DNA of 64,000 nucleotides. Origin: a virus. The stretch is taken from positions 84,740 to 148,739 of the IMG/VR virus record IMGVR_UViG_3300017769_000001; one strand, written 5' to 3'. A model generated the notes under the pieces. The model ran no database searches. It was not told the origin of the DNA and saw nothing but the letters and a program-made list of their open reading frames with translations. The translations under genes were made by a program, and so were the position numbers. Shown here in pieces: positions 28,986-60,206 of this stretch (its first letter is position 1; each line of letters opens with the position of its first letter).

Positions 28986-29000
28986 TCCCTATAGACCTTC

Positions 29001-29008: not shown

Positions 29009-29033
29009 TCACCAAGAATTAACGGAAGGTCTC

Positions 29034-29423: not shown

Positions 29424-29424
29424 A

Positions 29425-31632: not shown

Positions 31633-31641
31633 GGATAGGTT

Positions 31642-33135: not shown

Positions 33136-33147
33136 GAGAGTAACGCA

Positions 33148-35214: not shown

Positions 35215-35238
35215 TTTCTTATAGCCTCCGATAAACAA

Positions 35239-37618: not shown

Positions 37619-38914
37619 ATGGCAAAGTATATCGTTCACAAGTTATCGAAGAATATCAAGGCAACAACTCAGGACATCGAAAATGGTGTTTCTGGTAAGT
37701 TTGCTGATGCTTCTGTTATTGGTGCCTATTTTGAAAATGTTTCAACAGCTGCTCTCGAAGGCATTGGCGATATTGTCATGCTACGAACAAATCAGAATGC
37801 AACGGGTTATCTGAAATGCGATGGTTCCTTATTTCTTGACTCCGAGTACCCGGAACTTGCAGATCTCTTGAAGAGTAGAGTTGAACAAGGCGTCCACAAT
37901 CCTTTCACAAGCCAATTGGTATCTGTATCGAATGCAACTGCATCCGACGCTGGAAAGCATATTGCAATATCCCGAAACGACGAGTTTGTCGCAGTGACCA
38001 ACGCGTTTGGCGGCGACCTTCTAGTTTATCAGACATCGGATTGGACATTGTTAAGTTCTACGTTAGAGCCTGTTAATGCTGCTGTCAACGCCGTCGAGTT
38101 TTCTCCCACGCAGGATATCATGGTGTCAACCAGAAATGGACAGGACGTCACAACTTCAGGATTCGCTGTTTACGACACAAACACATGGGCGAGAACCGTC
38201 TATAACTTCCCATCGGGATACGAAACAGCTGTTCCTATATATTCGTCGTTCAGTGGCGATGGTCGCTATCTTGCAATCACCATGGCACTTAACGATACCC
38301 TGATCTATGAGACTGAAAATTGGACGTTGGTTCACACATTAACGTCTGGCATCGTATCCCAGAGAGAATGTTCATACTCTCCAAATGGAATTTATCTGGC
38401 AGTCTGCGGCACTAACCCTAACTCCGTAGAAATATACGAAACCTCAGAGTGGACTTTGGTGGCTTCCGAGACTTACGCCAACGCGGTCGATGCTATTTCA
38501 TTCTCTCCTGACGGAAGGGAGATCTTCGTATGCTATGGTAACTTACTACAACAATACAGGATGGATGAGGGGGCATTTATTCCAGCAAGAATTTACACGG
38601 GGAATTACCCAAATTCCGTATCATACGCTCCGGATTCTTCGTATGTATTCACGTCATCAACCACAGCACCTTATCTCAATGTGCTGTCGAATCAGGAATA
38701 CTCCAATTCACTGCCGCAACCGCCAGCCGCTGCTCGTTATGTGAGGGTGTCTCCGAAAGGAAAGTACGTTGCTTATATCGAGAGTAATTACGGATTGCGA
38801 GTTCGTATGATTCAAGAAGACGTTCCTGCTGGTTATACCCGACTGCCAGACTTCCCGATACAGAAGCAAGGAACAATAACATTACATCCGATGATCAAAG
38901 CCTCCCTGCAATAG
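37619..38914 (+). CDS. Tail-collar protein with inserted beta-propeller, paralogue 1
   Basis: This 431-residue protein has a cap module (1-45), then GDIVMLRTNQNATGYLKCDGSLFLDSEYPELADLL, the start of a phage tail-collar domain (GW/L-x-CDG...YPEL). About 300 residues of WD40/YVTN-like repeats follow (FSPTQDIMVSTR..., YSPNGIYLAVCGTNPNSVEIYETSEWTLV, FSPDGREIFVCY). The end, PAGYTRLPDFPIQKQGTITLHPMI, looks like the closing half of the collar domain. The propeller is probably the receptor-contacting part. It is the first of four tandem paralogues. Confidence 0.78.
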   Translation: MAKYIVHKLSKNIKATTQDIENGVSGKFADASVIGAYFENVSTAALEGIGDIVMLRTNQNATGYLKCDGSLFLDSEYPELADLLKSRVEQGVHNPFTSQLVSVSNATASDAGKHIAISRNDEFVAVTNAFGGDLLVYQTSDWTLLSSTLEPVNAAVNAVEFSPTQDIMVSTRNGQDVTTSGFAVYDTNTWARTVYNFPSGYETAVPIYSSFSGDGRYLAITMALNDTLIYETENWTLVHTLTSGIVSQRECSYSPNGIYLAVCGTNPNSVEIYETSEWTLVASETYANAVDAISFSPDGREIFVCYGNLLQQYRMDEGAFIPARIYTGNYPNSVSYAPDSSYVFTSSTTAPYLNVLSNQEYSNSLPQPPAAARYVRVSPKGKYVAYIESNYGLRVRMIQEDVPAGYTRLPDFPIQKQGTITLHPMIKASLQ

Positions 38915-38916
38915 GA

Positions 38917-38924
38917 GTAAATAG
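38917..38924 (+). promoter_or_regulatory. Late promoter box GTAAATAG
   Basis: The box lies 26 bases upstream of ATG 38951. Confidence 0.6.
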
Positions 38925-38950
38925 TTTCGTCACGATAAAGTAATGGTGTT

Positions 38951-40288
38951 ATGACGAAATATATTGGTTCTGATTTAACCGAAAAAATCAAAGCAACAAC
39001 AGAAGACGTTCAAAACGCCGTTGAGGATAAATACCCGGACGCTTCTGTTGTTCTTGATTATTTCAACAGCGTTCCGAAGAGTCGCCCTGAACAGGTGGGC
39101 GATATATTCCTGAATCGGCTTGATAAGTCGACTCCGGGCATGATGCCTTGCGATGGCCGACTGCTTCAGAAAAGTCAATACCCGGAACTTGCAGAAATTC
39201 TCAAGGACAAGACTCAGACATCATTCCAGTTCAATAACCTAGATGCAATCGCAGGATCATCCTCTGTGAACGCAGAGGTTCTTTCTATCTCCGAGCGCAG
39301 CAACGGTGAATTGGTTGTCTTGTACTCAGCATCTCCGTATATCCGAGTCTTTACTGGTTTTAACGGGACTGATCTGAACGTTCCTTCACTTCCGGGTATC
39401 GGCAGAGGTGGTGCATTCTCTCCAGACGAGAGTATCTTCATTGCTGTTCATAGCGGGTCTCCTTTCATGACTGTTTATGAAACAGAGAACTGGACAAAGC
39501 TAACAGGAACTCCGACACTCCCGCTAACCGGGTACAACGTTTCATTCAATCCAGACGGGAGTAAGGTCGCAATCGGACATGCCGGTTCCGCTCGAAGAAT
39601 GTCCGTTTACCTGACAGACAGCTGGACTCTTGATCCGGATGCTCCCATTGTAACCGCTGGTACGACTGGGTGGTGTGCCGAATTCTCACCAAATGGTAAG
39701 TATCTGGTGGTTGGTTTTGCTGGATCCCCATATTCAGCACTTTATGACGCAGAGACTTGGGAATTGAAGAGCGAATACACACCGCCTAACGTTGGGTTCG
39801 CCGTTTACACTGCAAAATTCAGTAATGATTCTAATGTCCTTTACCTTGGATCCAATTCCGGAACGAGAGAAGTATTGACAAGACATCTTAAAAATGGTGA
39901 CCGTCAGGTGACTGGATCTTCGGACGAAGTTTACAGTATTTCTATACACCCGAACGGAGAGGGGTTTTCATATGGTACTAACTCGGCTCCTTTTACGGCG
40001 ACCAGATTGTCGTACATGAAAGTTTACGAATTATCGTCGTTGACCCAATCATTTGATGGCCCAGCACTACCAGACTCGGCTAACATCAACTGGGTTAAGG
40101 CAGTAACTGTAAGTAAGGACGGAAATTACCTTTATTACGGACTGTCGAATACTGCTACTGGGCCTTTCTTCGGAAGGATTACGCTTTACACACCACCTCC
40201 GATTGGCACATTCGCGTTGCCGAGGCTACCGGCGGTTCGGTATGGCGACATTTTAGTACAGCCTATGATCAGAGTGGAGCCTATTTAA
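38951..40288 (+). CDS. Tail-collar protein with inserted beta-propeller, paralogue 2
   Basis: This 445-residue protein has the same layout as its upstream neighbour: cap module (1-45), collar start GDIFLNRLDKSTPGMMPCDGRLLQKSQYPELAEIL, propeller repeats (FSPDESIFIAVHSGSPFMTVYETENWTKL, FNPDGSKVAIGHAG, FSPNGKYLVVGFAGSPYSALYDAETWEL) and collar end PIGTFALPRLPAVRYGDILVQPMI. Its stop overlaps the next gene start by TAATG, so paralogues 2-4 are translated as a chain. Confidence 0.78.
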   Translation: MTKYIGSDLTEKIKATTEDVQNAVEDKYPDASVVLDYFNSVPKSRPEQVGDIFLNRLDKSTPGMMPCDGRLLQKSQYPELAEILKDKTQTSFQFNNLDAIAGSSSVNAEVLSISERSNGELVVLYSASPYIRVFTGFNGTDLNVPSLPGIGRGGAFSPDESIFIAVHSGSPFMTVYETENWTKLTGTPTLPLTGYNVSFNPDGSKVAIGHAGSARRMSVYLTDSWTLDPDAPIVTAGTTGWCAEFSPNGKYLVVGFAGSPYSALYDAETWELKSEYTPPNVGFAVYTAKFSNDSNVLYLGSNSGTREVLTRHLKNGDRQVTGSSDEVYSISIHPNGEGFSYGTNSAPFTATRLSYMKVYELSSLTQSFDGPALPDSANINWVKAVTVSKDGNYLYYGLSNTATGPFFGRITLYTPPPIGTFALPRLPAVRYGDILVQPMIRVEPI

Positions 40289-41490
40289 TGATTGGCGATA
40301 TTGTATATAATAGTTTAAACACAAAGAACCGTCTGAAGTGTGATGGTTCTTTACATCGGATTTCGGACTACCCGGAACTGGCGTCTTATTTGAGCGACGT
40401 AAAGTCATCTTCAATTGATGTGAGTTTTAATGACACCCCGTCTTCTCTATCGCCGAATATCGGGGTTCCATGGTGTATTGAATTCTCTCCAGATGGAAGT
40501 CTTATGGCTGTCGGGGGTGATGCGAACTCAAACTTGAAGATTTATGACACGGCGACTTGGTCAGTTGTCTCCGGAACTCCAACGCTGGCAAGTGAAGTCC
40601 GTGATATTTCTTTCTCCCCCGATGGGAAATATATGGCCGTTGCCATGTATTACTCGCCGTTCCTTTTCGTGTGCGACACTGAAACTTGGACGGAGATTGA
40701 CGTAAAGGAGCTATCAAATCAACCAGCATACGTTAGGGGCGAAGGGGTGAACTTCTCTCCGGATGGCAAATGGTTGATTTACATAGATATAGATTACGTC
40801 TTTCAAATCAGAACAGATACATGGACGCATCATGGACTGCTTTCATTGGGGGCAGCTGGTGATACATATCGAGGCGCGTTTAGTAATGATGGAAAGAAGT
40901 TCGCCGTGTGCGGTAGAAGTACCGCATTGGATCAAGCAGTAATTCACATGTACGACTACATTGAAGATGGCGGTTATTTGGAATTCACCCATATGAAAAC
41001 AAGTTCTACTACCATTCCATTTTGGGGTGACGTCTGCTTTGCGAATGATGACCTTCGCGTCATGGCAGTTTACGACAAGTACATCGGTTTTTATGAAACC
41101 ACGAAACTCACTTACGCTGATGTTGTCGAGGCATTAGGTGCCGTTACATTTGCCAGATTGGCTCCATTGAATGAAACGATGGTTGCTGTTTCTGCTGCTG
41201 TTGATGCGACCGATGATAACTCTGCGGTCATAGCATCAACGATTTCATATTTTGGTGATTCGTTAGGTCTATCAGAATCCCAGATATCGAACTCTGGGTC
41301 TGTAAGAACAATCGCAATCGCATCACCACCGGATAGGAGTATTCTCGTTTATGGTCTGGGTAATAATTTAGCCGTACGGACGATGAAAAAAGATCCACCT
41401 GCTGGATACTTCCATACACCGACGATAGAATCAAGACAACCGGGCAACGTCTTTAACTACCCGGTACTAATACAGGCTAAGGAGGATTGA
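40288..41490 (+). CDS. Tail-collar protein with inserted beta-propeller, paralogue 3
   Basis: This 400-residue paralogue lacks the 45-residue cap and starts directly with the collar half GDIVYNSLNTKNRLKCDGSLHRISDYPELASYL. Propeller repeats include FSPDGSLMAVGGDANSNLKIYDTATWSVV and FSPDGKYMAVAMYYSPFLFVCDTETWTEI. It ends PAGYFHTPTIESRQPGNVFNYPVLI. It may bind to a capped neighbour to attach to the virion. Confidence 0.78.
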   Translation: MIGDIVYNSLNTKNRLKCDGSLHRISDYPELASYLSDVKSSSIDVSFNDTPSSLSPNIGVPWCIEFSPDGSLMAVGGDANSNLKIYDTATWSVVSGTPTLASEVRDISFSPDGKYMAVAMYYSPFLFVCDTETWTEIDVKELSNQPAYVRGEGVNFSPDGKWLIYIDIDYVFQIRTDTWTHHGLLSLGAAGDTYRGAFSNDGKKFAVCGRSTALDQAVIHMYDYIEDGGYLEFTHMKTSSTTIPFWGDVCFANDDLRVMAVYDKYIGFYETTKLTYADVVEALGAVTFARLAPLNETMVAVSAAVDATDDNSAVIASTISYFGDSLGLSESQISNSGSVRTIAIASPPDRSILVYGLGNNLAVRTMKKDPPAGYFHTPTIESRQPGNVFNYPVLIQAKED

Positions 41491-41491
41491 A

Positions 41492-42655
41492 ATGATCGGA
41501 GATCTGTATTTCGACAGTCTTAATACACAGGGTAAATTGCCTTGTGATGGAGCTATGTATCCGGTTAGTGACTATCCTGAGTTGGCCGAAGTTTGTAAGA
41601 AACTCCATCAGGATAGGATTGAAATCAATCAAACTCCGTTTTATTCCTATACTGCGAACATGCCAGCGGAAGAGTATTTGAAAATACATCCAAGTGGAGA
41701 GTACCTTGTCCACAACATAAATGTGTCGCCATACTTGGTGAGGGTAAATCTAACTACAGCTGCTACCAGCACCCCAGTGTCACTACCAACAGTGCCAATT
41801 TGGTTTGACTTCTCTCCTGACGGAGGATTTCTTGCTGTCGGGTATAACGGGTCGCCTTTTATGGAGATTTATAGAACATCCGACTGGAGTAAATTGGATT
41901 TTTCTCCTGTTGGGGCGAGTATGAATTTCTCGTCTCGTCAGGGTAAGTTTTCTCCCGATGGGACGCGACTTGCACTGTGTAATTATGACGATAATGCCTT
42001 TGTAGTCGTAAACATGCGAAACATGAATGCCCGTAGGGTTTCCACCACAGACCCGTTGGACTTTACAGAAGCACTGGATTTTTCTCCGGATGGTAGATAT
42101 ATAGCGGTTGCTTACGACCTGAGTCCGAACCTGAAAATATTCGATGTAGAAACTCTACAAGAAGTCACCGGGCTATCGGTGAATGCTATAACGGATGTTA
42201 AGTTTTCTCCGGATGGGCGTCATCTGGCAGTAGCACATAACGGAGGAGGAGGAGGATCCTATTTCTCCATAATCAGTACAGCTAATTGGGGCGAATTAGC
42301 CATAGGGGATGTGCTCAGTCCGACGGCTGCCGTTGAATGGACAGTTGACGGGAATCATATTGTTCTAGGAACGCAGTCAGCAACTCCATATCGATTGTTT
42401 GATGTTTATCAGTGGGAGTATAACGACATTGCGACTATAGGCGAAATGTTCCCTGCGTATGACGGGCCTGCTCAAAGTGGGTTGCAAATATCTCCAGACG
42501 GCTCTTTACTTGCGTTTAACGTATTCGGAGACGGATTTAAAGTTCATGAAATCAAGAAGAAAGCACCTGCTGGGTATTTCTACGTTCCGAATATCCCGCA
42601 CCAACAGTCTTCAAATATTTCGAAATACCCAGTACTAATACAGGCAGAAGAGTAA
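41492..42655 (+). CDS. Tail-collar protein with inserted beta-propeller, paralogue 4
   Basis: This 387-residue paralogue also lacks the cap and starts GDLYFDSLNTQGKLPCDGAMYPVSDYPELAEV. Repeats include FSPDGGFLAVGYNGSPFMEIYRTSDWSKL, FSPDGRYIAVAYDLSPNLKIFDVETL and FSPDGRHLAVAHN. It ends PAGYFYVPNIPHQQSSNISKYPVLI. GGAGG precedes ATG 41492. Its stop overlaps the next gene (TAATG). Confidence 0.78.
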   Translation: MIGDLYFDSLNTQGKLPCDGAMYPVSDYPELAEVCKKLHQDRIEINQTPFYSYTANMPAEEYLKIHPSGEYLVHNINVSPYLVRVNLTTAATSTPVSLPTVPIWFDFSPDGGFLAVGYNGSPFMEIYRTSDWSKLDFSPVGASMNFSSRQGKFSPDGTRLALCNYDDNAFVVVNMRNMNARRVSTTDPLDFTEALDFSPDGRYIAVAYDLSPNLKIFDVETLQEVTGLSVNAITDVKFSPDGRHLAVAHNGGGGGSYFSIISTANWGELAIGDVLSPTAAVEWTVDGNHIVLGTQSATPYRLFDVYQWEYNDIATIGEMFPAYDGPAQSGLQISPDGSLLAFNVFGDGFKVHEIKKKAPAGYFYVPNIPHQQSSNISKYPVLIQAEE

Positions 42656-43126: not shown

Positions 43127-43405
43127 ATGAATCACGATGTGATTGGAACAATTTATGAAACTCAGCCGGTTTATGACGAAGAAGGAAATGTAGTGACAGA
43201 GGGCGTGCTCGCCGAAGGCTTCCATGTGAACTTCCCGAGCCCTGTACCAGAGTTTGAGGAATACCGCGTGTACCCGGCAACCCCAATTCGTGTTTATGCT
43301 GGTGGTGTCACTCCGGCATGTTACACGTTTGCCGATGAAGCTGAATGGGAAGTAAAGAAGGAAGAAGTATTCGGAAATCCGAATGAAGTAGAAGGTAACG
43401 TGTAA
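43127..43405 (+). CDS. Small acidic hypothetical protein, fibre module
   Basis: This 92-residue protein has ATG 43127 with AGGAG 7 bases upstream. It is mostly beta with an acidic C-terminus (DEAEWEVKKEEVFGNPNE). The GVLAEGFHVNF...FEEYRVYPATPIRVYAGG pattern resembles small proteins encoded near phage tail fibres, but no family is assigned. Its stop overlaps the next fibre start. Confidence 0.72.
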   Translation: MNHDVIGTIYETQPVYDEEGNVVTEGVLAEGFHVNFPSPVPEFEEYRVYPATPIRVYAGGVTPACYTFADEAEWEVKKEEVFGNPNEVEGNV

Positions 43406-44709
43406 TGAGAATGATTGGCGACGGTCTTTCGAAGAAAGGCAGAAGTGGTACTGTCGATGACATCCGACGGCGCAATGATGAAAAGCGTGAGGTCGTCGGC
43501 AATTCTGGTTTGGATGATGCGTTAAAGCGTATCGATCCTTCATGGGGTCTTGATGTCAAACCTACTCTGGATTTCGATTTCGTTCGTAATGAGTATGGGG
43601 TATATGACGGTGAGGATATTGTTAAAGGTCAATTTATTGATCACGCGACAGTATCACGAAACTCTGTTGCCACATATTTCGATGCGACCGGAAAAATGCG
43701 AACTGCTGGTGTGAATGAACCTCGATTTGCATATGATCCCGAAACTGGTGAGCCTATGGGCCTTTTGATTGAGGAACAAAAAACTAATCTAATTTTACAA
43801 TCTGAAAACCTTACTTCAGGAAACTGGACTCTCGCAGCAAATTTAACACTTGATGCAGATGTTCTTGTGGCACCAGATGGAACTTTAACAGGCGATAGAC
43901 TTACGTTAATAGGGTCTTCAGGGCATAACGTAGTTCAATCGTTTTCTCAAATAGACGGCACTACTTATACTGTATCTGTTTATGCAAAAAACGTTTCTAA
44001 TTTCAGCGACTTTTTTCAGATCGCTTATTATGACGGGCCTTCTTCTGTTGAATCAAAAACTGTTAAGATTACTGATAATTGGGAAAGGTATAGTTTTACT
44101 TTTACTGCGCAGGCAGGTGTTGCATCTCCGCAAATAAGATTGCTTGGTTTTGGTTTTGGTGGTGACGGAGATCAAGTTGGTATTTGGGGCGTCCAACTAG
44201 AGGTTGGATCTTTTGAATCTAGCTACATCAAAACAGAAGGATCTCAGGTTACTAGAGCTGCTGATAACTACACCAGAATGTTTTCTGAAGAATTTAATTC
44301 GGATGAATTCACCGTGGTAATCGATTTTGATCCACTTAGATCTCCATCTGACACAAATTTTAGACCTATTATGTTATCAGATGGTAACACAACAAACCGA
44401 ATTGGGACGGCAGGAAACTTTACGATAGTTTCAGTTGATGGAGTGACATCATTAGGAGGGCTGTCTCCTTCTTTAACCGCACCCGGAAGACTGGCAATAT
44501 CCGCAAAAGAAGGAAACATCCAGTACTGGTTTTTGGGTGAAAAGGCTTCAGAGTATATCGGGAATACCGATATCAAGAAACTAACCACGATGTTATTGGG
44601 ACATGCAGAAGCAAATTTGGTTGGCACTGTTCCAGAGATGCTGCTTAAACGGTGCACACTATACCCAATTTCGATAAATGAAGTTTATTTGAAATCAATC
44701 ACATCATGA
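43405..44709 (+). CDS. Tail fibre / adhesin with one carbohydrate-binding-like unit
   Basis: This 434-residue protein has an Arg/Lys-rich N-terminus (MRMIGDGLSKKGRSGTVDD...) that may attach it, then one copy of the unit found twice in the 711-residue fibre: RNSVATYFDATGKMRTAGVNEPRF, MGLLIEEQKTNLILQSEN, APDGTLTGDRL and GIWGVQLEVGSFESSYIKTEG. A laminin-G-like C-terminal domain follows (FTVVIDFDPLRS...LLGHAEAN). Its A/T-rich codon use after position 43,780 differs slightly from its neighbours, suggesting a recently acquired receptor-binding part. Confidence 0.78.
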   Translation: MRMIGDGLSKKGRSGTVDDIRRRNDEKREVVGNSGLDDALKRIDPSWGLDVKPTLDFDFVRNEYGVYDGEDIVKGQFIDHATVSRNSVATYFDATGKMRTAGVNEPRFAYDPETGEPMGLLIEEQKTNLILQSENLTSGNWTLAANLTLDADVLVAPDGTLTGDRLTLIGSSGHNVVQSFSQIDGTTYTVSVYAKNVSNFSDFFQIAYYDGPSSVESKTVKITDNWERYSFTFTAQAGVASPQIRLLGFGFGGDGDQVGIWGVQLEVGSFESSYIKTEGSQVTRAADNYTRMFSEEFNSDEFTVVIDFDPLRSPSDTNFRPIMLSDGNTTNRIGTAGNFTIVSVDGVTSLGGLSPSLTAPGRLAISAKEGNIQYWFLGEKASEYIGNTDIKKLTTMLLGHAEANLVGTVPEMLLKRCTLYPISINEVYLKSITS

Positions 44710-44710: not shown

Positions 44711-44738
44711 AAACCCCCGCTTCGGCGGGGTTTTTTAT
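44711..44738. terminator. Bidirectional intrinsic terminator
   Basis: Stem CCCCGC / GCGGGG with a TTCG loop, then TTTTTT on the plus strand and AAA before it. It separates the plus-strand fibre gene from the convergent zinc-ribbon island. Confidence 0.92.
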
Positions 44739-45010
44739 AAAACTTCCAACTCAAGAGCCGTCTGAAATTCAACTATTTTACGTTGGTCTCCTTTAAACGT
44801 TGTCTGGCTCATGTAATCACTCCAGTGGTAGAAACCCCCGTTCGGAATATACGATTTAATGATCTCAGACTCTCCCCCACACCCATAACAAATGTCAGGA
44901 TCCCCCATCAGACTTTTGCGAGATAAATCAATGAGCCACCCGCAATGTTTACATTCCACACAGTAGACGTATCTCACAGGCTTTGTACGATTGTAAGCCA
45001 ATTCCGCCAC
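44735..45010 (-). CDS. Zinc-ribbon small protein 6 of the island
   Basis: This 91-residue protein has Cys pairs CVECKHCGW and CYGCGG spaced about 22 residues apart, a classic zinc ribbon. A mixed tail ends in VEFQTALELEVL. The start is GTG 45010 with AAGGA about 10 bases upstream; it overlaps the previous gene by 37 bases. It is last in the six-gene minus-strand operon. Function unknown. Confidence 0.7.
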   Translation of the reverse strand: MAELAYNRTKPVRYVYCVECKHCGWLIDLSRKSLMGDPDICYGCGGESEIIKSYIPNGGFYHWSDYMSQTTFKGDQRKIVEFQTALELEVL

Positions 45011-45306
45011 AATTCAAGCTTCCTTATCAGATGGTGTGCGTAAGAGTCTTCGTTGTTGGATATTAAGACTTCGTTGTGATGAATCCAATCAGATTGATCT
45101 GTGACTCTCTCAAAATCATGAGAATTAGTTCTTTCTCTCATGATTGATGAAGCATTCCCGCACATCATACATTCGACCTTTCCATCGGTCAACTCCCCCA
45201 TCACAGGCGTCTTCCACCCACAACGACAACACGTAATATGTCTGAAATTCCAAACATACCAATCATTAATCTCCATGTGCTCAAGAAACAAAGAAGCATT
45301 ATTCAT
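44974..45306 (-). CDS. Zinc-ribbon small protein 5 of the island
   Basis: This 110-residue protein has pairs CCRCGWKTP and CMMCGN about 20 residues apart. A helical, His/Trp-rich C-terminal region follows (HHLIRKLELWRNWL). ATG 45306 overlaps the previous stop (ATGA), so the two are coupled. Function unknown. Confidence 0.75.
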   Translation of the reverse strand: MNNASLFLEHMEINDWYVWNFRHITCCRCGWKTPVMGELTDGKVECMMCGNASSIMRERTNSHDFERVTDQSDWIHHNEVLISNNEDSYAHHLIRKLELWRNWLTIVQSL

Positions 45307-45542
45307 AGCAACATATCCAAAACTTTTTCTTCGATGATATCCATTATCTTTTCCTCATCCATGCCGACCGATTTCATACTGACGTAGAACATCCCCTGAT
45401 ATATCAGGTCATCTTCGGTCAGCGGAGACCCGTTCTGTGATTCGGTTATTCCGTGAAATGGGGTAGCACTACAACCAAAGCACCGTGGGTGCTTTCCGGA
45501 TGGCTGAACCCAGTCACATTGAGCACATCTTAGAAGAGCCAT
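45303..45542 (-). CDS. Zinc-ribbon small protein 4 of the island
   Basis: This 79-residue protein has a short ribbon CAQCDWVQPSGKHPRCFGC at residues 6-24. An acidic helical C-terminus follows (EEKIMDIIEEKVLDMLL). GAGG lies 7 bases upstream of ATG 45542. Function unknown. Confidence 0.75.
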   Translation of the reverse strand: MALLRCAQCDWVQPSGKHPRCFGCSATPFHGITESQNGSPLTEDDLIYQGMFYVSMKSVGMDEEKIMDIIEEKVLDMLL

Positions 45543-45551
45543 AAACTATCC

Positions 45552-45806
45552 TCAAAATAGCCAGAGTGAAATTTTTTCGTCCCAGTTTATACTTTTGAGA
45601 TACTCGTCGGGATCGGAAACAGACCCCAGATCTCTCCATAAAGGCTGTCTTCTTATATGCCTTTCCATATACGAGAATGATGGAGCGATATATCCACACA
45701 ACTGACACCCCGGACACGCACCAGTGAACATAGGATCTTTAGGGATTATGAACGCACAATTAATACATTTCACACATTCGTATAGATCATCACTTATGTC
45801 TTCCAC
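45552..45806 (-). CDS. Zinc-ribbon small protein 3 of the island
   Basis: This 84-residue protein has Cys pairs CVKCINCAF and CPGCQLCG. The end DEYLKSINWDEKISLWL is almost identical to that of the next gene upstream (DEYLKSINWDEKVSLWL), showing gene duplication. GTG 45806 is chosen because GGAGG lies five bases upstream; a TTG at 45818 precedes the SD. Confidence 0.72.
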   Translation of the reverse strand: MEDISDDLYECVKCINCAFIIPKDPMFTGACPGCQLCGYIAPSFSYMERHIRRQPLWRDLGSVSDPDEYLKSINWDEKISLWLF

Positions 45807-45840
45807 TGTCACCTCCAACCCCCACTTTTCTTAAAGACTA

Positions 45841-46089
45841 TCACAAATGCAACCAAAGCGAAACTTTCTCGTCCCAGTTTATACTTTTGAGGTACTCATC
45901 ATCACCCCCAAGTCTCCGTGCTCTCCAGAACAGCTGGTATCGAATGTACCTTTCAGTGCTATCAGTCCGCATAACCAATAATGGTCTATCGCAACCCGGA
46001 CAATCATCAAACATTTCATGAACAGGGACTAAAAACGCGCAGTTAAGGCATTTCATACACGCGTACTGTTTGCCACTATCCGGTTCCAT
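45841..46089 (-). CDS. Zinc-ribbon small protein 2 of the island
   Basis: This 82-residue paralogue of the preceding protein has CMKCLNCAFLVPVHEMFDDCPGC at residues 11-33 and the shared C-terminal DEYLKSINWDEKVSLWL. ATG 46089 has AGGA close upstream and GAGG at 7 bases. Function unknown. Confidence 0.75.
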   Translation of the reverse strand: MEPDSGKQYACMKCLNCAFLVPVHEMFDDCPGCDRPLLVMRTDSTERYIRYQLFWRARRLGGDDEYLKSINWDEKVSLWLHL

Positions 46090-46137
46090 TCCTATACCTC
46101 AAATCAATATTTTAACGAGACTATCCTACATCCCCAA

Positions 46138-46461
46138 TCATAAATCCACCAACGCCACCCAAGCCTCGAATTCCTTTATTTTGGCTTCAAGGTGTTCTCT
46201 CGTAACTCTGCCTTCAAAGTGTTTGACGGTGTTCTCAACCCAGTCTTTGCTGAAGTGATGAACCTGAAATGAGTAATGCTCAATGTCGTCGAATATGACA
46301 CTGCCAATTGACGTATCATCACAACCACAAACATCACAGTAATCCGGGTTTGGTTTTAGATCTATAGGATCCCTCCACCCACAAAGCGGACAATGGATGA
46401 AATAGAATTGATATTCGCTGCCCTCGTGATCACGGGCTTTCGATTTTTTCATCATTACCAT
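46138..46461 (-). CDS. Zinc-ribbon small protein 1 of the island
   Basis: This 107-residue protein has pairs CPLCGWRDP and CDVCGCDD about 15 residues apart. A helical C-terminal part follows (LEAKIKEFEAWVALVDL). The start could be ATG 46461 or 46455; GAGG lies 3 or 9 bases upstream. It is first in the operon and divergent from the gene at 46518. No late box is visible before it, so it may be expressed at another time. Confidence 0.72.
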   Translation of the reverse strand: MVMMKKSKARDHEGSEYQFYFIHCPLCGWRDPIDLKPNPDYCDVCGCDDTSIGSVIFDDIEHYSFQVHHFSKDWVENTVKHFEGRVTREHLEAKIKEFEAWVALVDL

Positions 46462-46477: not shown

Positions 46478-46485
46478 CTAAATAA
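46478..46485 (+). promoter_or_regulatory. Late promoter box CTAAATAA
   Basis: The box lies 32 bases upstream of ATG 46518. Confidence 0.7.
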
Positions 46486-46517
46486 AGAAAAACCAAACTC
46501 ACTAAGGAGTCTAACAC

Positions 46518-46856
46518 ATGGCACTAACAGAAACAACTCGCGATGTTAAAGGTAAAACCCTGACTTTCATCGAAACTGACGCAGCTGGTAACGGCATCTA
46601 CAAAGAAGGACTGTCGGATTACGATTACAACATTTTCGTAACCGTTGACGCTGATGGCACTGGCGCTACCCTGAAAGACAAGATGGATGCGTACACCCTG
46701 AAGAACGGACGTACTGCTACCGAAGTTTACGGTTCTCTTATCGTTGACATCGACGCATATGCTGCTCTGGCTCTGAAGAAGTACTTCGAACAGAATGAAG
46801 CAGAATCTCTGATTGATCATGAAAACCGCATCGCAACTCTTGAAGCTGCTCCGTAA
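46518..46856 (+). CDS. Stand-alone NGR/VY module protein
   Basis: This 112-residue protein has AAGGAG, a late box and its own terminator, so it is probably abundant. It aligns along its length with the last about 105 residues of the adhesin ending at 51,107: GKTLTFIETDAAGNGIYKEGL / GRVLTFIDIGDGFGILKDAL, then TLKDKMD...KNGRTATEVYGSLIVDI and a C-terminal coiled segment (LIDHENRIATLE). The NGR...VY part is also in the protein at 169-585. It may be a trimeric virion decoration or an attachment module. Confidence 0.8.
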   Translation: MALTETTRDVKGKTLTFIETDAAGNGIYKEGLSDYDYNIFVTVDADGTGATLKDKMDAYTLKNGRTATEVYGSLIVDIDAYAALALKKYFEQNEAESLIDHENRIATLEAAP

Positions 46857-46880: not shown

Positions 46881-46961
46881 ACATCAGTGAAGTTGTGCAG
46901 TCTCTCTGATGTTCCGATAAACGTATCATGAAGGAAACGATATGGCGAGTACATCAGAGAG
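46881..46961 (+). promoter_or_regulatory. Candidate alternating RNA hairpins over the start of the 46942 gene
   Basis: CTCTCTGATGT (46902-46912) is perfectly complementary to ACATCAGAGAG (46951-46961), which lies in codons 4-7. The loop holds the AAGGA SD and the ATG. A competing stem pairs ACATCAG (46881-46887) with CTGATGT (46906-46912). The two are mutually exclusive, as in a translational switch. This is structural inference only. Confidence 0.4.
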
Positions 46962-48231
46962 CCCACAAAGCATAACTCAGAATTACACGATTCCTGTTAT
47001 AAAACAAGAATCACTTTCTATCACCGGAGATCGTACTCACGGCAGTCTTCTAACGGTGCAGGATCCTCAAAGCAGGTTCGGATCCCGTGAAACTCAACTA
47101 TTCCGGCACTGGCAAGTCGGTAGTGAGATATTGCTTAACGGAACGGCGTCATCTGCTGAGAACGGAGTCTCCGTTCCAGACACAGTTGAAGTCTGGAGTG
47201 GTATTTCTGACAATGTAGAAATCACCTCGGCAAACCTCAGACATGCGAGAATTGACCAACAATACCGTGCATTCGGTAAAGGCTCTCTGGTTAATTCTAA
47301 AGCATTCGATAATATTGGTGCTGGCGATAAATTCTATTTCGCAAAATGGGCAAATGCTGGTTGTAACTTCCAAAGAGCATACGTTCTCGGATTTTTAAAT
47401 CTAACTGGCACATTCAACACCAGTGCAGATCGTTCTCGCGGAGAACCTGTAACACTTTCCCTTGTTGGTGGTGGTACTAAGACTGGCTACATCACATCAA
47501 TCATCAATTCTGTTCTCACTCTGGAAATCGACGGTGGTTCTGGCGGGGCTGCGACTATCGAAGGTGCTACTGTAACAGGTGCCCAATCCGGAGCAACACT
47601 GGTTATCGACACATCGACAATTTACGGAAGTACAGCAGCAACCAAGATCGCCCGAATTTACAGTGGCGGTATTCCTAGTGGTCTTGGTATTAGTGTAGTG
47701 ACAAGTCACAACGGCGGTCTTATCGATGTTGATGAGTATGGAGATACTGGATACGTTGGATCGTCTGCAAACGACTACTCCAATCAGCTGTATTCCACAG
47801 ATCCCGGCAACTTCCACTTGTACGAACTTGAGATCGATTTCAGTGGCGCTACTGGATCTGTTCGACAAAGAATCGACAACAAGGTTGTTTATGAAGTGTC
47901 CGGATTGAGTAAGACATACCTATCCGCAGTGAAGGGGTTCTTCCTTTCGAATGTTGGGATGGATACATCGGGACTCCCTGTTGATGTTAATGATATCGGT
48001 TTGACTGAGTACTGGGGTGAAATAATCGCAGACAACTCATTGAAACGGTTGGTGATTGGCGACTCTAACACATTGGACACCTGCAATCACATCGAGATCC
48101 AAAAGCATACTTCTTGGGGTGAAGGAATCGTTCAATTCCAACTCAACCAAGGGTCGTTTTCTGATCTAACCGGGAAATATTTGTTCTTGGTTGATGCAGG
48201 TTTCAGCGAAGTATTTTCGGCAGCACTGTAA
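46942..48231 (+). CDS. Beta-rich adhesin-like protein A
   Basis: This 429-residue protein has an N-terminus ASTSESPQSITQNYTIPV nearly the same as the next protein (ANTSQSPLSVTQNYTIPV), suggesting a shared attachment peptide. The rest is Gly/Ser/Thr-rich beta structure, including TGYITSIINSVLTLEIDGGSGGAATIEGATVTGAQSGATL, typical of fibre shafts. A jelly-roll-like section follows (YELEIDFSGATGSVRQRIDNKVVYEV). No family is recognised; it is probably a virion surface protein. Confidence 0.75.
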   Translation: MASTSESPQSITQNYTIPVIKQESLSITGDRTHGSLLTVQDPQSRFGSRETQLFRHWQVGSEILLNGTASSAENGVSVPDTVEVWSGISDNVEITSANLRHARIDQQYRAFGKGSLVNSKAFDNIGAGDKFYFAKWANAGCNFQRAYVLGFLNLTGTFNTSADRSRGEPVTLSLVGGGTKTGYITSIINSVLTLEIDGGSGGAATIEGATVTGAQSGATLVIDTSTIYGSTAATKIARIYSGGIPSGLGISVVTSHNGGLIDVDEYGDTGYVGSSANDYSNQLYSTDPGNFHLYELEIDFSGATGSVRQRIDNKVVYEVSGLSKTYLSAVKGFFLSNVGMDTSGLPVDVNDIGLTEYWGEIIADNSLKRLVIGDSNTLDTCNHIEIQKHTSWGEGIVQFQLNQGSFSDLTGKYLFLVDAGFSEVFSAAL

Positions 48232-48235
48232 ATAG
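48228..48235 (+). promoter_or_regulatory. Late promoter box GTAAATAG
   Basis: The box lies 20 bases upstream of ATG 48256 and overlaps the preceding stop codon. Confidence 0.6.
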
Positions 48236-48255
48236 AATGAGAACTGGAAAATAAC

Positions 48256-49569
48256 ATGGCGAATACATCACAAAGTCCATTAAGCGTTACTCAGAATTAC
48301 ACCATCCCCGTTGTACTTGGCGATGGTCTCGGTATTCCGGTGATTAATAGCGCAGCAAGCAATGGCGATGGAACCATTACTCTGTCAGGAACGAATTTCG
48401 GAGTTAAGCCGCAAGCTGCACCGATTCTCTGGGCATTCGGTACTGACCGAAGAAACAATGGTGTTCCTCAACCTGCAATCGATTTCACCCCCGGTGTAGA
48501 CGTTAACGATCCGACTGTATGGTCGACTTACGTACACAACCCGGTAAAATTCTCCGATACAACCCGATATCCGGGACTTGGGGTTTCTTACTGGTCAGCT
48601 AATGGTGGTTCGTTGAGTAACCCGTTGGCGCATTTTGATGGCAATCCTTATCCGAAATACTCGGATGAAATTTACGCATCTGCTCGATTCAAGTTACTTA
48701 CAGACTGGCATAATGCTAGGGCAATTCGGGTATCAGGAATCACTGGAACGTTCGACCAAGGCCCAAGTAAGTATGAATATGGCGAAACTCTGACATTCAC
48801 TAACAATGGCGACACATGGTCAGCTCAACTTGTAGCTATAACCGGAGACGTTGCAACCATCGTTTCTGACAGTGGATTCGATTATGTGAATGCTACGGCT
48901 ACTGGCGACACGTCTGGGGCAACATTCACTTCAACAGAATATCTGGCTTCCTCTGGCGGATCCAAGTACTTCCGCATGTGGGCAGGCGGTGTTGCTGGGC
49001 CTTTCAACTCAATCACGACAAACCGTTTGATTGGTGGTTACAAGGATGAAAACGGGACGCTCATCGCATCGTACAAAAACGAAGATGGGTCTGACGATCT
49101 TGGGTATGGGACTCAGGATATGACGGCAGTTCCGGGATGGAGATTCGCGGAAGTTTATATCAACCAGAAAGGCAACCAGAGTTACCAGTACTTCGATATA
49201 GACAACCTCGGACGTCGGTACGTTCGAAATCTAACCATCCCCGAAGGACAAAAGTTTAATGATCGGGCGATGACACTGTCTCAGGTCGGTTATGACGCTG
49301 CCGGTGGAACACAGATAATCGACACTGCTTTCTACTGGGGTGAAATATATCTGGACAGTACGCCAAAACGCGTTGTTCTAAGCAACAAGCCTAACCTTGC
49401 GGATATAGGACAGGAACAGGAATTACAATTCTTGACCGCATGGACTCCCAATGGGATTACATTCGAGGAAAGAATTGGGGCACTACAGGGCATGGGGTCT
49501 GTTTATGCGTATGTGTTCACTGAAGAAGATAAAGCAAATGACGTTGGATTTTATATAGGAGACTACTAA
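48256..49569 (+). CDS. Beta-rich adhesin-like protein B
   Basis: This 437-residue paralogue of protein A has the same N-terminal peptide and a similar layout: a TGTFDQGPSKYEYGETLTFTNNGDTWSAQLVAITGDVATI middle and a sandwich-like later part (FAEVYINQKGNQSYQYFDIDNLG). An IPT/TIG-like start (INSAASNGDGTITLSGTNFG) follows the attachment peptide. The stop overlaps the next gene (TAATG). Confidence 0.75.
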   Translation: MANTSQSPLSVTQNYTIPVVLGDGLGIPVINSAASNGDGTITLSGTNFGVKPQAAPILWAFGTDRRNNGVPQPAIDFTPGVDVNDPTVWSTYVHNPVKFSDTTRYPGLGVSYWSANGGSLSNPLAHFDGNPYPKYSDEIYASARFKLLTDWHNARAIRVSGITGTFDQGPSKYEYGETLTFTNNGDTWSAQLVAITGDVATIVSDSGFDYVNATATGDTSGATFTSTEYLASSGGSKYFRMWAGGVAGPFNSITTNRLIGGYKDENGTLIASYKNEDGSDDLGYGTQDMTAVPGWRFAEVYINQKGNQSYQYFDIDNLGRRYVRNLTIPEGQKFNDRAMTLSQVGYDAAGGTQIIDTAFYWGEIYLDSTPKRVVLSNKPNLADIGQEQELQFLTAWTPNGITFEERIGALQGMGSVYAYVFTEEDKANDVGFYIGDY

Positions 49570-52623: not shown

Positions 52624-53043
52624 CTAAGTCCCGTTAACGCGGGACTTTTTTTTGGCTCTTTGGGCAACAAGTTCATCGCGAGAGATTCTCTTTTGACCGC
52701 TGTTGCCTTCAGAATCGTCCGACGTACTTTCAATCGCCTTCGCGCCTTTCTGACGAGAACGAATCTCAGCATTCTTGTGCTTGATTTGAAGATCAGATTC
52801 CTTGTACATAGTATCTTTTGCAAGATCGAGGTACTGCTTCGCAAGCTCAAGCTGTGGGATTCTTTGCTCCGGCTCCAGTAGCTTAGACTCATTAACGAGT
52901 TCTTTATACTGCTCAAGGGCAAACAATACCACGTCCCTCATGGTAGGATCCTCTGGAATTTTCAGATCCATTCCAAATACCTTTTTCACTTCTTCTGACG
53001 CTTCAACACCCAGTGCGTCGTCCAATGGATGGCTCCCGCTCAT
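52624..53043 (-). CDS. Probable terminase small subunit (T4 gp16-like)
   Basis: This 139-residue, mostly helical protein begins with a HPLDDALGV motif, which resembles the start of T4-like gp16 proteins. A central coiled region (FALEQYKELVNESKLLEPEQRIPQLELAKQYLDLAKDTM) resembles the oligomerising part of gp16 relatives. A basic tail follows. GGAGG precedes ATG 53043. It lies 17 kb from the large subunit gene, on the minus strand, and directly follows repeat copy 3. The call is from pattern only. Confidence 0.55.
   Translation of the reverse strand: MSGSHPLDDALGVEASEEVKKVFGMDLKIPEDPTMRDVVLFALEQYKELVNESKLLEPEQRIPQLELAKQYLDLAKDTMYKESDLQIKHKNAEIRSRQKGAKAIESTSDDSEGNSGQKRISRDELVAQRAKKKSRVNGT
52626..52654. 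terminator. Bidirectional intrinsic terminator
   Basis: An 8-bp stem AAGTCCCG / CGGGACTT is followed by eight T residues on the plus strand. It lies at the convergence of the lysis operon and the small terminase gene and overlaps the stop of the latter. Confidence 0.92.
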
Positions 53044-53051
53044 ACTTCCTC

Positions 53052-53134
53052 CATTTGAGAATCTATATCAACAACCTTTAAGTTTAACCACGCCCTACTA
53101 CACAGATATATATTCCTGTGTAGGAAATGGCTTG
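53052..53134 (-). repeat. Structured repeat element, copy 3 (inverted)
   Basis: On the minus strand the order is CTACACAG-N10-CTGTGTAG (53098-53123), then GCGTGGTTAAACTTAAAGGT and TTGATATAGATTCTCAA. It ends directly at the GGAGG of the 139-residue gene. Its flank GCCATTTC is shared with copy 1, and TAGATTCTCAAATG is shared with copy 2. Confidence 0.95.
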
Positions 53135-53163
53135 TTTATTGTATTTACTGGGATTTTCGGATG

Positions 53164-53219
53164 TCTCCAGAATCTGGTTGACATTTGTACTTACAAGAGG
53201 CATAACTAATTTCTGGAGA
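53164..53219 (+). promoter_or_regulatory. Sigma70-like promoter framed by a 9-bp inverted repeat (PhoH operon)
   Basis: -35 TTGACA (53178-53183), a 17-base spacer and -10 CATAAC (53201-53206). Perfect arms TCTCCAGAA (53164-53172) and TTCTGGAGA (53211-53219) frame it, the right arm falling at the expected start site. This looks like a two-site operator or a repressor-looping site. Confidence 0.6.
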
Positions 53220-53256
53220 GAGTGTACCCAATGACTTTCCAACACAGGAGCCTTTC

Positions 53257-54003
53257 ATGGCTAAGAAGAAACCGAAGTTTGACACCCGCAACGAATCAAG
53301 TGCTGTGGTTCGTGAAATTGGAAATCGTAAGAGATTCCATCCCAAAGACCTCTGTAACCTCCAACCGTATCCCGGAAATCAAGAACACTTCTTCGACCTT
53401 TACCGCGCAGGTAAGCCAATCATTTCGATGGTAGGCCCAGCAGGTACAGGTAAGAGTTTCTTGGCTCTCTACGCAGCTCTGGGCGACGTTTTCGATGACT
53501 CGACCGAGTATGACAAGGTAATCATCATTCGGTCTGCTGTTGAGACGAGAAAGCAGGGGTTCATCCCCGGTGATCAGGATGAGAAGAACGCACCGTATGA
53601 AACTCCATACATCGGTGCGGCATCCAAGATGATCCCAGCGTACAATGATGCTTACGCACATCTGAAGAGCCTCGGATACCTCGAATTCCATACAACCGGA
53701 TATCTCCGTGGAGATACATTCGACCGATCTATCATATTGGTTGATGAAATCCAGAACATGGACTACGACGAGCTGGCGACGGTGATCACCAGATGTGGAG
53801 AGCATAGTCGGATTATGCTTATGGGTGACCACAAGCAATGTGACCTTGGAAGGTTCCGACAGGAGTCTGGCTTCGACAAGCTTCAGCGTGTTTTCAGAAA
53901 CATGGATGAAAGTATGATCGGTATGGTAGTTTTTGAACTGGAGGACATCGTGCGTTCCGGACTCGTTAGGGAGTTCCTGATCGCAGATTACAAAACAGAA
54001 TGA
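53257..54003 (+). CDS. phoH: PhoH-like ATPase
   Basis: This 248-residue P-loop protein of the PhoH family is common in marine phages. Walker A is MVGPAGTGKSFLALYAAL (residues 58-75), followed by VIIIRSAVETRKQGFIPGDQDEK, SIILVDEIQNMDYDEL (Walker B) and SRIMLMGDHKQCDL. PhoH proteins are linked to RNA handling or RNase activity, but their phage role is unsettled. AGGAG lies 6 bases before ATG 53257. It is first in the plus-strand recombination/replication operon. Confidence 0.93.
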   Translation: MAKKKPKFDTRNESSAVVREIGNRKRFHPKDLCNLQPYPGNQEHFFDLYRAGKPIISMVGPAGTGKSFLALYAALGDVFDDSTEYDKVIIIRSAVETRKQGFIPGDQDEKNAPYETPYIGAASKMIPAYNDAYAHLKSLGYLEFHTTGYLRGDTFDRSIILVDEIQNMDYDELATVITRCGEHSRIMLMGDHKQCDLGRFRQESGFDKLQRVFRNMDESMIGMVVFELEDIVRSGLVREFLIADYKTE

Positions 54004-54007
54004 TATG

Positions 54008-54049
54008 AGAAAAGGGCCGGTGGATTTAATCATCGGCTCTTTACTTTTT
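54008..54049 (+). terminator. Probable terminator after phoH
   Basis: A 12-13 bp stem with G-U pairs (AAAGGGCCGGTG / CATCGGCTCTTT) is followed by ACTTTTTG. Confidence 0.65.
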
Positions 54050-54093
54050 GAACTCTCTATGCTAAATTACCACCATAGCATTAGAGTTTCTTT

Positions 54094-54327
54094 ATGAGCG
54101 ACAACAAATCAACACAGATCACGCCGGTCTGCTCCATCGAATTCTACTACGACCCCCTCACCGAAGTTCCTAAATATCGTATCCGAAGAGCTGACGGAAC
54201 CTTTATGGATCCCCTGTCGGTCTACGCTATGGCATGTGTCGAAGTTCTGGACGAACAACATCCAGATATCATCAGGCGCGTGGAACAGTTGGCTGGGGAT
54301 TCCAGAGTTTCATTAAAAGTCCATTAA
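54094..54327 (+). CDS. Small hypothetical protein
   Basis: This 77-residue protein (MSDNKSTQITPVCSIEFYYDPLTEVPKYRIRRADG...) has a beta-like first half and a helical second half. No obvious SD precedes ATG 54094. It lies between phoH and the uvsX group. No family is recognised. Confidence 0.65.
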   Translation: MSDNKSTQITPVCSIEFYYDPLTEVPKYRIRRADGTFMDPLSVYAMACVEVLDEQHPDIIRRVEQLAGDSRVSLKVH

Positions 54328-54338
54328 GGAGGCAACCA

Positions 54339-54575
54339 ATGGAAGATTACCCAGATTACCTACAGCGTCTTATTGACGAGACAAATGATCTCAGAGAGAA
54401 GATCGACAATCTGTCCAATTTTCTCAGAGGCCCAAAGAGTCACGAAATCGGTTATGTGAGGACGCGTCTTCTTCAGGAGCAATACACGCACATGCAGAAA
54501 TACTATGATGTTCTGGTTGAGCGTGTTGATTTGGAGAAGACTATCCACAACGCCAGAAGAGAGGGGATTAAATGA
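54339..54575 (+). CDS. Small coiled-coil protein of a widespread phage type
   Basis: This 78-residue protein has AGGAGG 6 bases before ATG 54339. The pattern YLQRLIDETNDLREKIDNLSNFL...LLQEQYTHMQKYYDVLVERVDL is that of short helical proteins found in many unrelated phages (DUF7681-like); their role is unknown. Its stop overlaps the uvsX start (ATGA). Confidence 0.75.
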   Translation: MEDYPDYLQRLIDETNDLREKIDNLSNFLRGPKSHEIGYVRTRLLQEQYTHMQKYYDVLVERVDLEKTIHNARREGIK

Positions 54576-56512
54576 GCAAGCTTGGAAAACTGAGAAAGTC
54601 TTTCGATAAGAAGGGCATCATCACTGAAATGAATGAGCCTACAGAATGGATCAGCACCGGGAATGCTGCCATGAATTATCGTCTGACTGGCCGTTATGAT
54701 GTCGGAATCCCAAACCGCCGAACGATGTTGCTGTGGGGTGAGAGTGGCTGTGTAGACGCAGACACTGAGTTTCTGACTCCTACTGGCTGGAAGCGTATTT
54801 CGGAATATGAGGAAGGAGACTTTGTGGCACAGTTTGATAAAGAAACGTGCCAAATGTCTTTTGTTGAGCCGAACGAGTACATTAAGAAACCGTGCGAGGA
54901 ATTTTATCATCTGAAAACGAAGTATGGGATTGATCAGATGTTAACTCCAGAGCACCGTGTATTGTACCGCAGCCCAAAAGGAAAGCTCCAGGTTAAGTCT
55001 GCTGAAGAAGTGGTTCAAGCACATAACTCCGATACTGTAAATGGATTTCGTGGTAAGATTCTGACAACATTCGAACCACCAACTACCGCCGGTATTGATA
55101 TCAGCGACGACAGCCTGCGTCTTCAAGTTGCAGTGATGGCCGATGGAAGCTTCAACCCCAAGAGAACCACATGGGACAATTTCGTTCGGATTAGTGTAAA
55201 GAAAGACCGAAAGAAAGAACGGATTGTGAAACTTTTGGACGCCGCTAATGTGGAATACACCCGAATAGATCGTGATGATGGATTTTCTCGATTTGAGTTT
55301 GGTGCTCCTATGAACACCAAGGTTTTTGGTTCTGAGTTCTACCAATGCACCAAAGAGCAATTAGAACTGATTGCTGACGAATGTCTGCAATGGGACGGGT
55401 CTGAAAACAGGGGAGAGTTTTTCACAACCAGCAAACAGTGTGCGGACTTCATCCAGTACTGTTTTTCAGCGACAGGCAGACGGGCAACAATCTCTGAGGA
55501 TGTGAGAGAAGGAAGAACAACTTCCTATGTTGTACATGCCACTACAACGAATGAAGTCTCCATGGCAGGTGCAACTCGAACTCCAATTGAGAAGGTTAAG
55601 GCTGGAGACGGATTCAAGTATTGTTTCGCTGTTGAGAAGACATTCTTGGTTCTGCGTCGTAATGGTCGGGTGTTTGTCACAGGTAACACTGGCAAGACCT
55701 TCCTGACTTCAAACGCTGCAAAGAACGCACAGGACAAAGGTTATTCGATCATCTATCTGGATTCTGAAGACAGTATCTCGGAAGACTACATGACGAAGAT
55801 TGGGATCGATCTCGACGAAGATAAGTTCGTCCCAGTCCTTATCGATACCATCGAAGAAGCGACTGCCGCCATTGCAGAAATCTTTTCAACGATGGAACCG
55901 GATGATAAGTTCATTCTGATCATCGACTCGCTGGCTGGTATGCTTTCTGAGAAAGAAGAAGGTGAGTTCGAGAAAGGTGTCTCAAAGGGTGACCAAGGTC
56001 AGATGGCGAAGAAGTTGAAGCTCTTCGTGAAGAACATCAACAAGAAAATCTCAGAATATGATGCATTCTGTATTATGGTGACGCACGCGTACCAGAACCA
56101 AGACCCGTACTCCACTGAAGGAAAGTGGATCTGTACTGGAGGTAAAGGTATGCAGTTCTTCCCATCATTCTCCGTGCGTCTGGATAAAGCCAAGCTGAAA
56201 GAAGGCATGAAGGTGGTTAACGGTGTTCGTATCCGTGGCGAAGTAACCAAGACTCGTTTCACTGCACCATTCCAGAAGTTTGAGCTGAAGGTTCCGTACA
56301 CTGAGGGTCTGGATTTTACAGACGGTCTTCTGGATATTCTCGAAGAAGAAGGCGTTGTTTCCAAGAATGGTGCATGGTACAACTACGAGTTCGAAGGTGA
56401 GATTGTTAAGTTCCAAGGTTCAAATTTCCTTGAACACTACGAAGCGATCATGAGTAATTACCAGAAAGAACTCGAAGAAAGCTTTGATAACAAAGAAATC
56501 GAACCAGCGTAA
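54572..56512 (+). CDS. uvsX: UvsX RecA-like recombinase interrupted by an intein
   Basis: The 646-residue precursor has a 333-residue recombinase after removal of a 313-residue intein (residues 60-372). Joined ends restore a Walker A LLWGESG-TGKTFLTS. Other recombinase marks are YLDSEDSISEDYMTKIGID, FILIIDSLAGMLS (Walker B) and MAKKLKLFVKNI. The C-terminal FEGEIVKFQGSNFLEHYEAI is normal for UvsX. It promotes strand exchange with UvsY and UvsW and starts recombination-dependent replication. Activity needs splicing, as the P-loop is split. Confidence 0.95.
   Translation: MSKLGKLRKSFDKKGIITEMNEPTEWISTGNAAMNYRLTGRYDVGIPNRRTMLLWGESGCVDADTEFLTPTGWKRISEYEEGDFVAQFDKETCQMSFVEPNEYIKKPCEEFYHLKTKYGIDQMLTPEHRVLYRSPKGKLQVKSAEEVVQAHNSDTVNGFRGKILTTFEPPTTAGIDISDDSLRLQVAVMADGSFNPKRTTWDNFVRISVKKDRKKERIVKLLDAANVEYTRIDRDDGFSRFEFGAPMNTKVFGSEFYQCTKEQLELIADECLQWDGSENRGEFFTTSKQCADFIQYCFSATGRRATISEDVREGRTTSYVVHATTTNEVSMAGATRTPIEKVKAGDGFKYCFAVEKTFLVLRRNGRVFVTGNTGKTFLTSNAAKNAQDKGYSIIYLDSEDSISEDYMTKIGIDLDEDKFVPVLIDTIEEATAAIAEIFSTMEPDDKFILIIDSLAGMLSEKEEGEFEKGVSKGDQGQMAKKLKLFVKNINKKISEYDAFCIMVTHAYQNQDPYSTEGKWICTGGKGMQFFPSFSVRLDKAKLKEGMKVVNGVRIRGEVTKTRFTAPFQKFELKVPYTEGLDFTDGLLDILEEEGVVSKNGAWYNYEFEGEIVKFQGSNFLEHYEAIMSNYQKELEESFDNKEIEPA
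54749..55687 (+). mobile_element. Intein with LAGLIDADG-type homing endonuclease domain in UvsX Walker A
   Basis: It starts Cys60 (CVDADTEFLTPTGWKRI, splicing block A), has block B LTPEHRVLYR with the TxxH pattern, and ends FLVLRRNGRVFVTGN (blocks F/G), followed by Thr373 as +1 nucleophile. The middle holds two endonuclease-like motifs, LQVAVMADGSF (184-194) and LIADECLQWDGS (266-277). The penultimate residue is Gly, not the usual His. Confidence 0.93.
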
Positions 56513-56517
56513 GTATA

Positions 56518-56533
56518 TGGGGCGAAAGCCCCA
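56518..56533 (+). terminator. Hairpin after uvsX, possible terminator
   Basis: GGGGC / GCCCC with a GAAA tetraloop, then ATTTCATT. The T tract is weak, so it may act as attenuator or RNA end. Confidence 0.55.
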
Positions 56534-56555
56534 TTTCATTACATAGGAGGTTGTG

Positions 56556-57219: not shown

Positions 57220-57226
57220 GTGAATC

Positions 57227-57454: not shown

Positions 57455-57470
57455 GGTAAAAGGACAACGG

Positions 57471-58940: not shown

Positions 58941-58942
58941 GA

Positions 58943-59922: not shown

Positions 59923-59923
59923 T

Positions 59924-60205: not shown

Positions 60206-60206
60206 T

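Follow-up and report, generated by a model that had tools for sequence, protein, structure and literature searches.

In phage T4, the asiA-arn-motA region consists of non-late genes that lie on the opposite strand and adjoin the late genes for the distal tail fiber and lysis, and it includes an anti-restriction protein and an RNA polymerase (RNAP)-binding protein. Classic morons mostly occur singly, in temperate phages, and have a recognizable promoter. Variable regions of large phages are known to be rich in counter-defense genes (PMC12373910; PMC12028318), which serves here as a prior only and not as evidence in the present case: Silas et al. screened accessory-gene islands from highly variable phage regions (PMC12373910), and the Schizotequatroviruses have exchanged anti-defense islands (PMC12028318).

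The locus described here, six small genes that we call Z1 to Z6, resembles each of these systems in part. Like the T4 region, the island appears to be non-late and lies on the opposite strand by fiber genes; the T4 proteins AsiA and Arn, however, are not zinc ribbons (their sequence relation to the Z proteins was checked through family libraries only). Like the islands of Silas et al. and of the Schizotequatroviruses, it has genes that are small and lineage-restricted and that sit where an otherwise collinear large genome differs in content between relatives, but here one family fills the island through tandem duplication, counter-defense homologs are known for none of its members, and the island sits inside the fiber locus. 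Like phage morons, the Z genes are accessory genes between late genes, apparently transcribed separately and with a putative terminator; unlike classic morons, they number six, their candidate promoter is at chance level, and their composition matches that of the phage. FmdB, RpoM, and rubredoxin-type ribbons also have two CxxC knuckles, on a small beta scaffold such as low-confidence models suggest for the Z proteins, and come up as weak, non-significant matches, whereas the Z proteins carry a predicted C-terminal helical tail after the ribbon and have no significant sequence or fold match to them. The Z family is thus an orphan: the initial annotation knew of no described system with this layout, and neither a known family nor such a layout was found in the databases and literature searched. 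We propose, with a probability of about 0.5, that the island is a non-late accessory operon whose six zinc-ribbon proteins arose by tandem duplication, are restricted to this lineage, and act as binders in host takeover or counter-defense.

The phage and its relatives

The record analyzed is an IMG/VR virus record of 148,739 bases, of which bases 84740-148739 (64,000 nucleotides) form the window to which all positions refer. The products encoded in the window include a contractile-tail sheath, a baseplate wedge protein, and a large terminase, along with a helicase and with proteins that resemble PhoH and UvsX; the virus is a large, contractile-tailed phage. By terminase, its nearest named relatives are the Alishewanella phages Slickus01 and Slicko01 (42-45% identity), whose source paper appears to be a Baltic Sea slick study (PMC10507051), and IMG/VR contains two further terminase relatives, G003 (157,856 bases, 44% identical) and G004 (101,610 bases, 47% identical). 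The large terminase gene (33688-35238) stands alone on the minus strand between plus-strand tail and fiber genes, and that of G003 lies on the plus strand within the same terminase/fiber interval, so its orientation varies between relatives. Elsewhere in the window, a 646-aa protein (54572-56512) matches two PHROGs, one PhoH-like (first half) and the other of UvsX-like recombinases (second half); the Slickus01 counterpart, at 340 aa, matches only part of it.

A six-gene island on the opposite strand

The initial annotation described six adjacent minus-strand genes, mostly overlapped or tightly spaced, each encoding 79-110 residues with two CxxC pairs, and all of these ORFs were found (Table 1). 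Z1 and Z2 overlap by 37 bp and Z2 and Z3 by 4 bp; the remaining gaps are 9 bp (Z3/Z4), 22-34 bp (Z4/Z5), and 48 bp (Z5/Z6). The range for Z4/Z5 reflects two possible starts of Z4, of which the GTG is more likely than the TTG (which would give 88 aa), because a predicted ribosome site, GGAGGTGA, lies just upstream of it and it aligns with the start of Z5. Clear ribosome sites also precede Z3, Z5, and Z6, the Z2 start sits in its overlap with Z3, and the Z1 start has GGAAG eight bases upstream. No credible competing plus-strand gene was found within the island, where no plus-strand ORF among those that reach 40 aa is longer than 65 aa.

Table 1. Positions of the Z genes and of neighboring transcription-related features in the window.
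Feature	Positions	Strand	Length (aa)	Description
Z1	44735-45010	-	91	GTG start; predicted zinc ribbon (CxxCxxC...CxxC) and C-terminal helix motif; ORF, family profile match
Z2	44974-45306	-	110	Predicted zinc ribbon (CCRCGW...CMMCG) and C-terminal helix; ORF, profile match
Z3	45303-45542	-	79	Shortest of the six and the most diverged; overlaps Z2 at ATGA
Z4	45552-45806	-	84	From GTG 45806 (listed ORF reaches TTG 45818); Z5 paralog, 52% identity
Z5	45841-46089	-	82	Z4 paralog; C-terminal 17 residues common to both
Z6	46138-46461	-	107	First gene of the putative operon; modeled N-terminal zinc-ribbon hairpin and two C-terminal helices
Putative late box CTAAATA	46478-46484	+		Directed at gene 46518 (divergent, virion), facing outward from the island
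GC-rich hairpin	44715-44730			Between convergent fiber gene (43405-44709, +) and Z1; stem with 6 GC pairs, reported for both strands
Candidate host-type promoter	46508-46536	-		TTGTTT-N17-TAGACT, extended TG; 47 bp before Z6; weak

The GC content (41-46%) and GC3 (39-49%) of the island are like those of the phage, so the island has probably been resident for a long time; recent horizontal acquisition, judged by composition, is unsupported. The word GATAGTCT occurs on the minus strand before Z4 and Z5 (45835-45842 and 46118-46125) and five times in the window against 1.85 expected, and no enrichment of it was seen upstream of other genes.

The Z proteins as one diverged family

All six Z proteins contain CxxC...CxxC, and the offset from first to last knuckle, 15-24 residues, fits the spacing of a ribbon. 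A six-frame scan of the whole 148.7-kb record gave 930 ORFs with a length of 45 aa or more; among the short ones (<200 aa), the pattern CxxC-x(5-40)-CxxC/H appeared only in the six Z genes and in one unrelated, low-quality frame. The chance that six marked genes among the 215 called would be consecutive is ~2e-9, and the motif arises in 0.1-1.4% of residue shuffles of each protein. These results support the assignment of Z1 to Z6 as zinc-ribbon proteins, with predicted zinc binding.

The initial annotation had called these zinc proteins diverse, which the leave-one-out profiles contradict if it is taken to mean unrelated: they appear to form one tandemly duplicated family. With a profile built from the other five members, none of 2000 full shuffles matched the real score of any of the six; when the cysteines were held fixed, the real score was beaten by 0-4 of 2000 shuffles in five members (one of 2000 for Z1, at 18.8 bits) and by 17 of 2000 in Z3, which scores 10.6 bits. 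Since the real proteins thus outscore 99.8-100% of Cys-fixed shuffles in five cases and ~99.2% in Z3, descent of one diverged paralogous family from a common ancestor, with likeness extending beyond the cysteines, is the better reading, weakest for Z3. The layout common to the six is an N-terminal ribbon, a variable middle, a D-x-[aromatic/L]-[hydrophobic] site, and a terminal helix with an invariant lysine; near the C-terminus the common positions read D-x-[W/Y/L]-[I/V/M/L] and K-[I/V/L]-x-x-[F/W/L/I].

The terminase/fiber interval in related phages

Comparison of presence and number in relatives placed the Z family in this phage only. A profile search of whole records found it absent from three large relatives, Slickus01 and Slicko01 (both titled complete genomes) and G003, and also from G004 and shorter fragments, where absence from a fragment proves little and the set searched may not include near-identical records. 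G003 is collinear with our phage on both sides of the fiber interval, the order of window genes 17284-33148 and 52624-60516 being kept, and in the same interval it has a different array: five minus-strand ORFs (L041:11344-13583; G003:C1:55344-57583), namely a 67-aa membrane-like ORF and four genes of 154-168 aa, tightly packed, two of the junctions being 4-bp overlaps. Beside the terminase, a terminator-like hairpin closes the array, and no TAAATA box was seen there on its strand. The array has no relation to the zinc family, and the four of its ORFs that were searched have no match in PHROGs. A similar D-x-L tail ends each of the four larger genes, and at least two of these are paralogous above shuffles (0/2000 and 10/2000); paralogy is not supported for the other two. 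The interval is therefore variable among collinear relatives, with the Z island missing from three and another array present in one of these. This one case hints, without proving it, that opposite-strand arrays recur at this site. A search for the empty site through the flanking gene 46518 found no relatives of that gene.

The fiber locus around the island is itself rich in tandem duplicates. Four consecutive fiber-region genes, 37619, 38951, 40288, and 41492 (37619-42655), match phrog_19311, indicating tandem duplication, and two genes of the locus match phrog_5939. Within the last of the four (41492-42655, 387 aa), a repeated 'FSPDG' pattern resembles a beta-propeller. The adjacent genes 46942 and 48256 (46942-49569), neither of which matches a PHROG, begin with a near-identical N-terminus (MA.TS.SP.S.TQNYTIPV), this common N-terminal part being joined to two different distal parts.

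Searches for families and folds

Searches of Pfam, PHROGs, NCBIfam, and PADLOC gave nothing significant for any Z protein, and no structural, transcription, or metabolic family explains any of them; the best sub-threshold matches had E-values of 0.0057 (PHROG, 21 residues), 0.099 (Pfam), 0.025 (NCBIfam), and 0.019 (PADLOC). The Pfam match, of Z6 to Imm53, was set aside as a single sub-threshold match without backing from the paralogs. A tblastn search of 50,697 phage records with all six proteins at relaxed limits gave no significant match, nor did a search of plasmids with Z6, and a search against Rfam found nothing. Scans of INPHARED, IMG/VR, and GTDB likewise did not find the family, although pattern seeding, as used for IMG/VR, is insensitive to distant relatives. 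In IMG/VR, two pattern matches to Z6 were set aside: the first, L002, has no such gene at that locus and no profile match in its record, and the second, L003, is the same short 32-residue match. The one match in GTDB genomes, L045, covers 33 residues among ordinary metabolic genes without such an ORF and was rejected as well.

The main rival to host-directed binders is that the Z proteins are transcription regulators, ribbons that bind RNAP (like small RNAP-binding phage proteins, of RpoM/TFIIS type) or nucleic acid and time phage genes. The zinc ribbon is a common RNAP and ribosome accessory fold, and the closest PDB sequence matches were archaeal RpoM-2 (E 0.12), followed by ribosomal eS27/eL37 and T7 primase, but none of these is significant. 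AlphaFold models place strands around the N-terminal knuckles and helices at the C-terminus at low confidence (pLDDT about 61; Z6 mean 61), and Foldseek searches with them yielded weak matches, including rubredoxin, FmdB, and RNAP-subunit ribbons, none significant and none with E <0.3. All six proteins, moreover, are acidic (computed pI 4.6-5.7), which argues against a general nucleic-acid binder, and six paralogs exceed what a regulator would need. Because the family is missing from relatives with the same gene order, it is not part of core regulation. Taken together, we regard a regulatory role as unlikely, though it outranks the other alternatives, and favor protein binders directed at the host.

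Transcriptional setting

In an unsupervised count over all genes, CTAAATA and forms overlapping it are the top heptamers upstream of genes (25-31-fold; CTAAATA itself, 26-fold), and CTAAATA precedes many tail, baseplate, and fiber genes; we take it to be the late box of the phage. As the initial annotation held, none stands before the island: CTAAATA has no minus-strand copy near it, and the sole nearby copy is the plus-strand one in Table 1. That its strand lacks a late box supports the view that the island is not transcribed as late genes, and it is probably transcribed early or middle, before the late virion genes, as we infer from this setting. At its downstream end, the terminator-like hairpin may end transcription from both sides, given the T-run on its plus side and the weaker T tract (GTTTAT) on its minus side. 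The best candidate for a host-type promoter scores 9.0, which is not above chance: 129 of 500 random 250-nt windows reach at least 9.0.

This setting bears on two further explanations. The Z proteins could exclude superinfection or mask receptors, in a functional link with the neighboring tail fibers, as the position of the island inside the fiber locus and its opposite strand without a late box might suggest; yet neither a signal peptide nor a membrane segment is evident from reading the sequences by eye, and the CxxC knuckles suggest an intracellular protein, making this improbable. The Z proteins could also be late products that belong to the virion or help to assemble the fibers (as minor virion components or chaperones), encoded on the other strand by chance. 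This would account for the fiber genes on all sides, but the island strand lacks a late box, no structural family matches, and relatives with fibers do without the Z family, so we consider this explanation more improbable still.

Divergence and selection

The C-terminus common to Z4 and Z5, whose 17 residues were first noted as near-identical, is DEYLKSINWDEK[I/V]SLWL. The two genes have a dN of 0.41 against a dS of about 2.2, a saturated and approximate value that gives a dN/dS of about 0.19, so the duplication is old; over the C-terminal 22 codons dN is 0.14 and six codon differences are purely synonymous, a pattern that marks the C-terminus as under purifying selection. Recent duplication or recombination as the source of the identical C-termini was rejected because of these six synonymous-only codons and the saturated dS. 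Neutral or selfish duplicates with no phage-level function, as might be expected of a lineage-restricted set in a locus rich in tandem duplicates, are very improbable, as all six frames are open and Z4 and Z5 keep their zinc ligands and C-terminus despite saturated synonymous sites.

A possible role for the island

Host takeover or anti-defense can reasonably be inferred from the position, strand, acidic charge, and lineage restriction of the Z genes, and protein-binding host interaction or counter-defense is the best fit because the proteins are acidic, combine a conserved helix with a variable middle, and are lineage-restricted, non-late, and encoded in a variable locus; accessory position alone is no proof of counter-defense. 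Under this proposal, the island would occupy the variable terminase/tail-fiber interval on the opposite strand, with transcription separate from that of the late genes and probably of early or middle timing. In each Z protein, an acidic zinc-ribbon scaffold would carry a conserved helix at the C-terminus and a middle part that varies between copies, and the proteins would most likely act by protein-protein binding. The conserved helix, common to all copies along with the zinc scaffold, may be a partner or dimer contact, and the diverged central part may give each copy its own host target, so that duplication would have produced a small set of host-takeover or counter-defense binders.

A more far-reaching version, which we offer tentatively and think unlikely, is that the interval is a dedicated site at which each lineage of this phage group keeps its own tandemly duplicated, opposite-strand operon of small proteins; the one here would be a diversifying, multi-target counter-defense array of six acidic zinc-ribbon binders that have a helix in common and differ in their targets.

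As it stands, the island defines an orphan family with good boundaries. If the Z proteins are host binders that arose through duplication, they would offer a compact case, open to testing, in which a phage has diversified a single scaffold to act on several host proteins, and the locus would be marked as a place to find similar arrays in related phages.
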